A DNA stretch of 51,247 bases from Bacteriovoracaceae bacterium (GTDB lineage: Bacteria > Bdellovibrionota > Bacteriovoracia > Bacteriovoracales > Bacteriovoracaceae), in NCBI GenBank assembly GCA_947446575.1, contig CANFHC010000022.1, positions 1-51,247 of the forward strand. Reading direction: 5' to 3'. Positions within the stretch are counted from its first letter, which is position 1, and every line of letters starts with the position of its first letter. Both the position numbers and the translations under genes were made by a program. The notes beneath the pieces were generated by a model. The model was given only the letters and a program-made list of their open reading frames with translations. It was not told where the DNA came from and searched no databases. Of this stretch, positions 48,452-50,760 are shown in pieces.

Positions 48452-48467
48452 TGGCACGGACTCTGCA
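48452..48467 (+). promoter_or_regulatory. Sigma-54 (RpoN) promoter
   Basis: TGGCACGGACTCTGCA carries GG and GC exactly ten bases apart and matches TGGCACG-N4-TTGCA at all but one position. Transcription should start near 48478, giving a leader of about 60 bases before the ATG at 48539. It is the only such site I found by eye in the window. It implies control by an ATP-driven enhancer-binding activator encoded elsewhere. Confidence 0.8.
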
Positions 48468-48538
48468 ATTGATATAAGTAGAGATCAAGGATTGGTCTCA
48501 TGGAATTTCAAGGAAGATAAAAATTTAGGAGCTTTAGG

Positions 48539-48877
48539 ATGAAGCATACAAAAGGACTAGGATTGGTCAGCCTCTTATCATTGGTAGTTATTACAATTGT
48601 GGGTCCGATGTCAGCCTTTGGCACCACCCAGTTCGGAGTCGCTTGTCCCCAAAAATTTATTGCAACAGTAACGAATATGACTGAATTAGAATCAGGGTCA
48701 TTTCCAAAAGTTGAAGTAGATTTTCAAGTGATTCAAACTCTTAAAGGTGACGAAATCTCCTCTAAGAAAATACAGATTGTAAAAGACGGACCAGTGCAAT
48801 TTAAAAGCGGAGAGATCTACACTGTAGAATCCCGTGAGAACTGGCTTTGTTCGGCAACTTTATTTTCGAAAAATTAA
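48539..48877 (+). CDS. Small secreted protein under a sigma-54 promoter, unknown function
   Basis: No family recognised. An N-terminal signal peptide of about 27 residues (ending SAFG) precedes a mature domain of about 85 residues that alternates strands (KVEVDFQVIQTLKG, KKIQIVKDG, GEIYTVES), with cysteines in VACPQ and NWLCSA that may pair. This layout recalls small netrin/TIMP-like (NTR) domains, which begin with an exported CP and carry a strand-rich barrel; that is an impression only. AGGAG is seven bases before the ATG. The metalloprotease gene follows after 86 bases, probably on the same transcript. Confidence 0.72.
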   Translation: MKHTKGLGLVSLLSLVVITIVGPMSAFGTTQFGVACPQKFIATVTNMTELESGSFPKVEVDFQVIQTLKGDEISSKKIQIVKDGPVQFKSGEIYTVESRENWLCSATLFSKN

Positions 48878-48898
48878 ATTTTCAAACGGTTCTCTAAA

Positions 48899-48924
48899 GG
48901 CCTTTCCATGGATGGAATAGGGCC
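48899..48924 (+). other. Hairpin between the sigma-54 gene and the metalloprotease gene
   Basis: GGCC-TT-TTCCAT-GG-ATGGAA-(TA)-GGGCC folds into a stem with a small bulge. A T-run follows only about 15 bases later, so it is not a standard terminator. It may partly terminate or stabilise the mRNA, setting the ratio of the two products. Confidence 0.4.
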
Positions 48925-48963
48925 CAGTTAGTAAGTGACTTTTTTTTTACAAGGAAGTAAAAA

Positions 48964-49773
48964 TTGGTACACACAAAAAAATTGGCCATAAGTATTATCC
49001 CCCTCTTATTTATGGCCATTTTCTTGTCTCAAGAATCTCATGCTTACTCATTAACCCAAGACTTTCAAAAAGGTTATTATTGGCAGAGTTTTCCAATAAA
49101 AATGTCTAAATTCATCACTGATCCAAACGATGGTGCATTGTTAGAGCAACTAACAAATCAAGCAGTATCTGATTGGGAAAATGCCGTAGGGAAAAATCTT
49201 TGGGATTTTAGTGCTGTTCAAACTTCATCTTCATATTCGGGAAACTATATTCGCTGGTCTGATAATTTTGGATCAGAAACGGGATACGATCCTAACAAAA
49301 CTTTGGCGATTACAATACGCTACAATCAAGGAACTTATTTTCAACAAACAGTTATTGTCTTGAATGGAAGTTTAAGTTATTTAAGGCAGAATTGGAGCAA
49401 CTCACTAAAGACCACGATTCTTCATGAGATAGGACATACCTTGGGTTTAGACCATTCTAGTGCAAATGCAATTATGGCCGCGAATTTAACATCGCTAACA
49501 ACTCTTCAGCCAGATGATGTGAAAGGTGTGAACGCTGTAGTTGATGAAACAATCAGAAGACAATCGACTGGATATGTTTCTCCTTATTCAGTGCAAACTT
49601 CAGAAAAGAATAGTTTGCTTCCAACTTGCGGGACCGTTGAAGATATCGCTGGCGGTGGAAAAGGTGGGCCTTCAAACGGGGCTGCTAATTTTGTGGGGTC
49701 ACTTTTAATTGGATTTCTGGCCATTAGCTTTGCAAACAAAAGAAAAAGACAAAGTGTAATAATCAAGTACTAA
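48964..49773 (+). CDS. Secreted matrixin-like zinc metalloprotease with C-terminal membrane anchor
   Basis: The signal peptide covers about residues 1-26. The zinc site HEIGHTLGLDH (His154, Glu155, His158, His164) is the metzincin signature HExxHxxGxxH, followed by a Met-turn, AIMAAN (Met171), as in M10 matrixins. After a linker with TCGTVEDIAGGGKGG comes a C-terminal hydrophobic helix (about residues 240-256) and the basic NKRKRQ. This Gly-rich/helix/basic layout resembles bacterial C-terminal sorting signals (GlyGly-CTERM or MYXO-CTERM types), though it could be a plain anchor. Translation starts at TTG, with AAGGAAG six bases ahead. Length is 269 residues. Confidence 0.85.
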   Translation: MVHTKKLAISIIPLLFMAIFLSQESHAYSLTQDFQKGYYWQSFPIKMSKFITDPNDGALLEQLTNQAVSDWENAVGKNLWDFSAVQTSSSYSGNYIRWSDNFGSETGYDPNKTLAITIRYNQGTYFQQTVIVLNGSLSYLRQNWSNSLKTTILHEIGHTLGLDHSSANAIMAANLTSLTTLQPDDVKGVNAVVDETIRRQSTGYVSPYSVQTSEKNSLLPTCGTVEDIAGGGKGGPSNGAANFVGSLLIGFLAISFANKRKRQSVIIKY

Positions 49774-49812: not shown

Positions 49813-50283
49813 ATGAATGAAGAAAACACATCAGCTATAAATTATATTTTTTACCTTCAAACCAAAAATGAATTGGATAACGGATATTATGTTCTTGCAG
49901 AGGTGCTCAGCAAGATTAATATAAGCCTACTTCCAATTTTTGCGGATGATTTAAAAGTCATTGATCGCAATAAAAAATATCATGTTATTTCTATTCGCAA
50001 TGATCTGTCATCAGCCATGGTCTTCAATCAAATCAGAAAATCCTTTTTAGATTTGGCTATGGCCTCAGGGAAGATTGCTTTATTTGATATAAGTTCATTT
50101 TCAGAGATAGATATTGCTGCAAAAATGCAGAACAAAAACGTATATCGTTATTTTCAACTGCCGCAAAATTTAAAACAAATTGCAATGACTGTAGCCGTTG
50201 ATTATTTTCGTGACAGAAACACCCAAGCACAGTGGCCGGGCGGAAAAAGGGCAAAACTCCCTTCTATGACAAACGAATCATAA
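49813..50283 (+). CDS. Cytoplasmic protein of unknown function
   Basis: No family recognised. The 156-residue protein has no signal peptide or membrane segment. It shows alternating helices and strands (for example YHVISIRNDL and GKIALFDISSF), suggesting a small alpha/beta fold, and a basic C-terminal tail. No Shine-Dalgarno precedes the ATG; TAGAAT (49803-49808) lies just ahead of it, so a near-leaderless message is possible. The next gene starts 18 bases downstream. Confidence 0.65.
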   Translation: MNEENTSAINYIFYLQTKNELDNGYYVLAEVLSKINISLLPIFADDLKVIDRNKKYHVISIRNDLSSAMVFNQIRKSFLDLAMASGKIALFDISSFSEIDIAAKMQNKNVYRYFQLPQNLKQIAMTVAVDYFRDRNTQAQWPGGKRAKLPSMTNES

Positions 50284-50301: not shown

Positions 50302-50760
50302 ATGAAAATAAAAATAAGTGAAGACACCCAAAGAATGCTCATGTTGCTTAAACTCGATGCCTTGCGGTTGTTCGAGCGTATAAAATATAGGGCCCCTGAA
50401 TATATGTATGAATTCTCATTAAAGAGATCGCGTGATCATTTTCCCGCTGTTTTCACAAATCGATATGACCAAACAACGATTGCTGAACTTATGCTTTGTG
50501 GGCAAGAAGTCTTAGCTGGTCTTGATCAATTTTATACAAAAGTTGATGAGGTTCGCTGGTATTTAAATCATACCCAAGACATGCCTAATAGAGTAGAAGA
50601 CAAAATTCACTCACACATTAGAGAGTTGGAAAAATTATTTCAAACACTCAATTTATATATAGATGTAGAGATGGGATTGATTTCTGAGCATCAACAAAAC
50701 GAAGAGATTGAAACAGAAATAGAAATAGGATCAATTCCAGAATATGAAACAGACAATTAA
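50302..50760 (+). CDS. Helical cytoplasmic protein of unknown function
   Basis: No family recognised. The 152 residues are nearly all predicted helical by eye, with an acidic C-terminal tail (EEIETEIEIGSIPEYETDN). There is no export signal. Its 3' end overlaps the following gene by 17 bases, and it stands 18 bases after the previous gene, so the three probably form one operon. Confidence 0.65.
   Translation: MKIKISEDTQRMLMLLKLDALRLFERIKYRAPEYMYEFSLKRSRDHFPAVFTNRYDQTTIAELMLCGQEVLAGLDQFYTKVDEVRWYLNHTQDMPNRVEDKIHSHIRELEKLFQTLNLYIDVEMGLISEHQQNEEIETEIEIGSIPEYETDN

Follow-up and report, generated by a model that had tools for sequence, protein, structure and literature searches.

The window, a stretch of 51,247 nucleotides that makes up an entire contig in a 3.39 Mb Bacteriovoracaceae genome, carries on its forward strand a gene for a small secreted protein directly followed by a gene for a matrixin-type protease. 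The features of this locus are the following:

48452..48467, + strand: sigma-54 (RpoN) promoter element TGGCACGGACTCTGCA, the only place in the window where TGGCACN6TGCW is matched exactly
48481..48499, + strand: leader hairpin with a GGA loop, GAGATCAA(GGA)TTGGTCTC, a putative CsrA/RsmA-type site, of a kind enriched over dinucleotide shuffles in 30 loci
48505..48518, + strand: weaker leader GGA-loop hairpin, ATTT(CAAGGA)AGAT, from the scan of leader hairpins
48531..48545, + strand: GGA-loop hairpin GCTTTA(GGA)TGAAGC over the start codon of the small gene, present in most members of the genus
48539..48877, + strand: small secreted protein of 112 aa with Cys36 and Cys104, an NTR/TIMP-like five-stranded barrel according to predicted structure and profile homology
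48904..48917, + strand: intergenic hairpin TTCCA(TGGA)TGGAA, a putative CsrA-type site whose stem covaries within the genus
48944..48963, + strand: conserved hairpin TTTTTAC(AAGGAA)GTAAAAA, whose loop holds the Shine-Dalgarno sequence of the protease gene
48964..49773, + strand: matrixin-type metzincin of 269 aa with a TTG start and a signal peptide to about A27 (PF00413, alignment)
49423..49455, + strand: zinc site HEIGHTLGLDH, with H154, E155, H158 and H164 invariant in 30 sequences
49627..49773, + strand: C-terminal tail of the protease, made of an invariant Cys222, a Gly-rich linker, a hydrophobic segment and a basic end (alignment)
49813..50283, + strand: cytosolic protein of 156 aa, directly downstream across the family
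50302..50760, + strand: cytosolic protein of 152 aa, downstream across the family

The near-perfect RpoN promoter that an earlier note on this DNA had placed ahead of the pair proved to be exact, unique in the window and conserved in orthologs. It combines GG at -24 and GC at -12 with the correct spacing, and the small gene starts 87 bases downstream. Genome-wide, TGGCACN6TGCW has 15 exact matches and the reversed control pattern has 0, and the genome encodes rpoN (PF04552) together with about 10 strong sigma-54 activator domains. Of 30 orthologous loci, 29 have an element scoring at least 9/11 upstream of the small gene, at -41 to -122 relative to this gene; when single upstream regions were shuffled, about 5% reached 9 and about 1% reached 10. 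One of these 29 loci (L026) offers two rival 9/11 candidates, with an intact GC element in the upstream one only. Several of the 15 exact sites (L061-L075) lie ahead of genes for predicted exported proteins or lipoproteins, including a lytic-transglycosylase-like one, and this set of sites looks rich in envelope proteins.

The 112-residue product has a predicted signal peptide ending at G28, with a mature start at T29 (SAFG before the cut, TTQ after it), and no Cys at +1, i.e., no lipobox. Its only two cysteines, C36 and C104 (residues 8 and 76 of the mature protein), are invariant in 30 relatives, which bears out the announced small two-Cys secreted protein. Sequence searches of Pfam, NCBIfam, and the PDB returned zero matches for this protein. 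TIMP/NTR sequence models run against 30 members of its family and 26 members of the wider family described below gave no match apart from a single weak NtA hit (E 0.03), and among PDB chains neither family had a sequence-level TIMP/NTR match. The Cys1-X-Cys3 and three-disulfide pattern of TIMPs is absent from the small protein, which starts with Thr-Thr and holds two Cys.

The AlphaFold2 model of the small protein, built from an alignment of 13 sequences, is a five-stranded barrel with core blocks mostly above pLDDT 90 and a low-confidence signal region. In a Foldseek search against 350,542 PDB chains, NTR domains occupied ranks 1 to 5, with the NTR domain of PCOLCE1 as the best match (E 1.4e-3) and TIMP-2, the NTR domains of complement C5/C3/C4, DUF2500, and the meteorin NTR among the further top matches. 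After realignment the best match was TIMP-2, with Z 9.6 over 82 residues, and generic OB folds (RecO, PriB) came near it at Z 8 to 9. The model taken alone is thus that of a predicted NTR-like OB fold and nothing beyond. The earlier note had offered an NTR/TIMP-like layout as a speculation to be judged by fold prediction, with a non-NTR fold lacking interaction among the outcomes against it; the predicted fold agrees with the speculation, PCOLCE1 NTR, TIMP-2, and complement NTR domains leading the PDB ranking, and a non-NTR fold was not seen.

The downstream protein matches Peptidase_M10 (PF00413) at 36.9 bits, with a cutoff of 24, and holds the HExxHxxGxxH zinc motif and the Met-turn of the matrixins (M10A), so that the matrixin-like protease with a full zinc site and a C-terminal hydrophobic segment is found as described. 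No cysteine-switch pro-domain of the animal MMP type is present: only ~126 residues separate the predicted signal peptide from HExxH, with no N-terminal Cys, and these leave no room for a pro-domain. An invariant Cys-Gly begins the C-terminal tail, followed by a hydrophobic stretch and then basic residues, a layout that would suit a membrane anchor or a sorting tail. The tail resembles MYXO-CTERM-type sorting tails, and the same Cys-Gly, Gly-rich, hydrophobic, and basic succession was seen on three further proteins of the genome (G000:C37, C26, and C3), at least two of which are matrixins. A general MYXO-CTERM-type sorting tag was considered; with so few carriers, at least two of the three being matrixins, a sorting tag and family homology are inseparable for this tail.

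By single-sequence search, the small protein was found in 32 of 97 genomes, all of them Bacteriovoracaceae. A matrixin ortholog lies directly 3' of the small gene in all examined loci but one, G045, where promoter and small gene are kept and no matrixin is adjacent. The converse occurs in G016, G053, and G040:C111: the small gene is missing, and the matrixin is immediately preceded by a sigma-54-like element. In G028 an additional small gene that escaped the single-sequence search precedes the matrixin. Another locus of G040 (L079, contig C122, 6189-6549) has a different small exported two-Cys protein in the slot upstream of the matrixin, perhaps an NTR partner that has diverged, perhaps a substitute for it. 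Given the exceptions in G045, G016, G053, and G040, the pair is coupled strongly but not absolutely. Across 27 genomes, the pairwise distances of the small protein and those of the matrixin show a correlation of 0.92, which joint vertical descent would lead one to expect. The unit of two genes proposed earlier is conserved as a pair, but the conserved unit runs past position 49773 into the two cytosolic ORFs, which persist in synteny in nearly all relatives, even where the protease or the small gene is absent. The 156-aa protein has no Pfam or NCBIfam match. Judging from this gene order, the ORFs at 49813-50283 and 50302-50760 probably belong to the same operon as the pair.

Beyond this family, the small-protein profile had weak matches in other phyla to exported proteins of ~220 residues whose genes sit immediately 5' of matrixin genes. 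A profile built from three of them re-found a wide family at many matrixin loci, these loci having been obtained by protease search. Apart from the ortholog set, 68 loci were compared with a 26-sequence profile, and in 34 of them the wide-family gene adjoins an ORF with the zinc motif. Its members, of about 200 to 220 residues, occur in Gammaproteobacteria, Verrucomicrobia, Acidobacteria, Rhodospirillales, and Planctomycetota, as well as in Myxococcota, Binatia, Thermodesulfobacteriota, and Bdellovibrionales; those scanned had no meaningful Pfam or NCBIfam match, and relatives of the representative L112 were absent from plasmid and phage collections. With signal peptides removed, the profiles of the two families match at 93 to 94% probability (E 1e-7 to 3e-7), against a maximum of 27% in 40 column shuffles. 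By profile comparison, the small protein of the window is thus homologous to this matrixin-linked family. The L112 model (pLDDT 88.7) also shows the five-stranded OB barrel of NTR type, TIMP-2, TIMP-1, and agrin NtA leading its Foldseek ranking, and after realignment all 50 of the 50 top entries listed were NTR-domain proteins.

In 20 genomes with such loci, a sample preselected through these very loci, 38 of 39 family matches have a same-strand M10 protease as a neighbor, and in 37 cases the NTR gene is the upstream one. Since these genomes had been reached through NTR-matrixin loci, we turned to 13 others, all from a single order and retrieved with nothing but the NTR profile. Two cases lay at contig ends and were left out; among the 11 assessable ones, 9 adjoin a zinc-motif protease, a lower share than in the preselected sample, with the NTR gene upstream in 7 and downstream in 2 (L231 and L233, protease first). 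The other two (L226 and L227, in G197 and G253) have no neighboring zinc protease within the 1.5 kb checked. Moreover, several matches share an unbroken reading frame with the protease; four loci (L206, L207, L209, and L210) were confirmed to encode a signal peptide, an NTR domain, a linker, and HExxHxxGxxH in a single ORF, and such fusions are independent evidence that the NTR and matrixin parts work together. It could be argued that an operon is all that the small protein shares with the protease and that it is an envelope protein of generic OB fold; OB folds are common, and for the window model other OB proteins differ in score by no more than one to two Z units. Against this stand the same-ORF fusions and the homology, by profile, to a family that goes with matrixins in several phyla, and we regard it as very improbable.

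The same gene order and fusions bear on another role, that of a folding or secretion chaperone, a pro-domain in trans needed to obtain active protease more than to inhibit it. The NTR gene comes first in the unit, the NTR part is N-terminal in the fusions, which is the position of a pro-domain, and the enzymes have no room for a pro-domain of their own. However, family proteases without an NTR neighbor exist, some with the same promoter type, the matrixin paralogs of the window genome have no partner gene, and the fold, which in itself shows no function, resembles inhibitors and binding modules rather than known chaperones. We therefore consider a chaperone unlikely.

A new element of the unit is the series of GGA-loop hairpins ahead of both genes, which we regard as putative CsrA/RsmA-type sites. 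At least one intergenic hairpin of this type occurs in 30 of 35 loci and at least two in 23 of 35; shuffles gave means of 11.7 loci (maximum 17) and 1.8 loci (maximum 6), respectively. The leader of the small gene has at least one in 28 of 30 loci and at least two in 19 of 30, with shuffle means of 13.4 and 4.0. Among the 41 genes of the window, three have at least two such hairpins, two of these being the small gene and the protease gene; the third is a gene call at about 43188 on the - strand. In helix 1 of the intergenic region, four pairs have changed on both sides within the genus, and across the family the stems vary while the GGA is retained. In relatives, the Shine-Dalgarno hairpin carries ACAAGGATGT, which forms the core of the consensus RUACARGGAUGU obtained for CsrA by SELEX (PMC7652899). 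The features of a CsrA/RsmA target are thus found together, with GGA loops, at least two sites, one of them over the Shine-Dalgarno sequence, and csrA in the window genome (and in 46 of 55 genomes searched). A terminator between the two genes was also considered, given the hairpin and T-run there; the terminator scan found none in this region, and sites of RNA-protein contact are a better match for the conserved GGA loops. The arrangement recalls the repression of glgC by CsrA, with one GGA site in the loop of an upstream hairpin and another over the Shine-Dalgarno sequence (PMC7652899). It differs in being a layout read from sequence, in Bdellovibrionota, and in concerning two genes of one unit. 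As both genes carry candidate sites, we do not claim that repression would be limited to the protease.

The principle of a metzincin with an adjacent inhibitor is already known from AprI, BamI, the potempins, and Tim. AprA/AprI of Pseudomonas is likewise a metzincin with its cognate inhibitor; the barrel of AprI is of another fold, and its targets are serralysins. Hege et al. (2001; listed in PMC4334185) attribute the block of the metzincin by AprI to a zinc-NH2 bond. The bamI gene lies directly upstream of the gene for the Pseudomonas secreted metzincin Mep72 and is bicistronic with it, and BamI binds Mep72 and relieves its toxicity (PMC4334185). The potempins of Tannerella are small exported inhibitors whose genes directly precede those of the KLIKK proteases, which include the matrixin-like karilysin (PMC7296668). 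The upstream-inhibitor layout of these systems, a gene for a small exported protein directly ahead of that of a metzincin, is found at our locus. By their published descriptions, on which both comparisons rest, BamI is partly natively unfolded (PMC4334185) and the potempins are lipoproteins (PMC7296668), unlike the small protein.

The Mtz-Tim pair of Listeria (PMC8235301) also unites a bacterial metzincin and a TIMP-like protein, but the mtz gene precedes that for Tim, Mtz cleaves Tim, which is a lipoprotein, and the pair is prophage linked. The TIMP similarity of Tim rested on a threading prediction, and in 2021 its authors found no literature record of bacterial proteins with a TIMP-like structure (PMC8235301). 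The cleavage and release of Tim by Mtz, which alters the cell wall (PMC8235301), together with the PCOLCE1 NTR domain as the best single PDB match, could suggest that the NTR protein is a substrate, an effector, or a localizer of the matrixin, cut or transported by it to act on the envelope in the way proposed for Tim, or a PCOLCE-like enhancer of substrate capture. Nevertheless, the window protein has no lipobox, no conserved cleavable linker was seen, and the tight N-terminal conservation of the wide family indicates a function of the N-terminus, so that we hold such a role to be quite unlikely.

With the animal TIMP/MMP pairs and other NTR modules (PCOLCE, agrin NtA, C345C of C3/C4/C5), our families share the predicted fold and, as in TIMP/MMP, a matrixin partner. 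In L112 as modeled, T25 and T26, the residues that open the mature chain after the predicted cleavage, align with TIMP residues 1 and 2, placing the mature N-terminus at the position of Cys1. This placement, which depends on a predicted cleavage site, was seen in L112 only, the N-terminal region of the window model being of low confidence. After the predicted cleavage site, the wide family has Thr or Ser at the first position in 22 of 26 sequences, Thr or Ser at the second in 24 of 26, and Val or Ile at the third in 24 of 26. The window family is looser, with Thr at +1 in 15 of 30 and Thr or Ser at +2 in 20 of 30. In TIMPs, the mature N-terminal Cys1 coordinates the zinc, and the disulfides are Cys1-Cys70, Cys3-Cys100, and Cys13-Cys123 (PMC9409782). 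By analogy, the role of Cys13-Cys123 could fall to Cys36, which stands just ahead of strand 1, and Cys104, within the last strand. In contrast to animal TIMPs, both families are bacterial, are encoded beside or fused with the protease, have no sequence-level match, and are without Cys1-X-Cys3, the six-Cys pattern, and the C-terminal TIMP subdomain.

Altogether, the best explanation, which we consider probable with some reserve, is that of an NTR-fold partner dedicated to the matrixin, with TIMP-like inhibition and double-gated expression. A sigma-54 activator would switch on the unit, whose genes would be cotranscribed, and a CsrA-type protein would probably restrain translation of both genes by binding their GGA-loop hairpins. 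The small protein would most likely be exported first and would keep the protease, which has no pro-domain of its own to hold latency, inactive until it reaches its site of action in the envelope. We infer that the barrel of the small protein would bind by packing on the rim of the protease, while its free Thr-Thr N-terminus, the product of signal peptidase, would enter the active-site cleft and block the zinc in a TIMP-like and AprI-like manner. Inhibition was ranked first because of the missing pro-domain, the zinc-NH2 precedent of AprI, the precedent of BamI, and the predicted placement of the mature N-terminus at TIMP residue 1. The following count against this explanation: the lack of a sequence-level TIMP/NTR match and of Cys1-X-Cys3, the near-equal OB folds, a pairing that is not obligatory, the partnerless paralogs, and the less conserved N-terminus of the window family. 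The inhibitor-like partner that the earlier note had imagined thus finds support at the level of predicted structure and gene linkage rather than activity.

As far as the open-access subset of the literature shows, the NTR-fold partner family for bacterial matrixins, with its breadth and its fusions, appears to be new, as does the apparent sigma-54 plus CsrA-type layout in Bacteriovoracaceae. As only this literature was covered and BamI, the potempins, and Tim were compared by description, part of the wide family may be known under another name. Homology, gene order, and fusion tie the TIMP-fold partner, which has no Pfam or NCBIfam model, to bacterial matrixins; the link provides a concrete hypothesis of function for a large set of hypothetical genes and opens the origin of the MMP-TIMP pair to testing. 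It is possible, and we propose it only tentatively, that bacteria of many phyla hold true matrixin inhibitors with the TIMP fold, encoded next to the protease or fused to it and acting in the active site through a free N-terminal Thr-Thr. If this is true, the MMP-TIMP principle would exist outside animals as a general bacterial device. For the Bacteriovoracaceae, a family known for predatory bacteria, our analysis indicates that an envelope protease may be under both sigma-54 and CsrA-type control.
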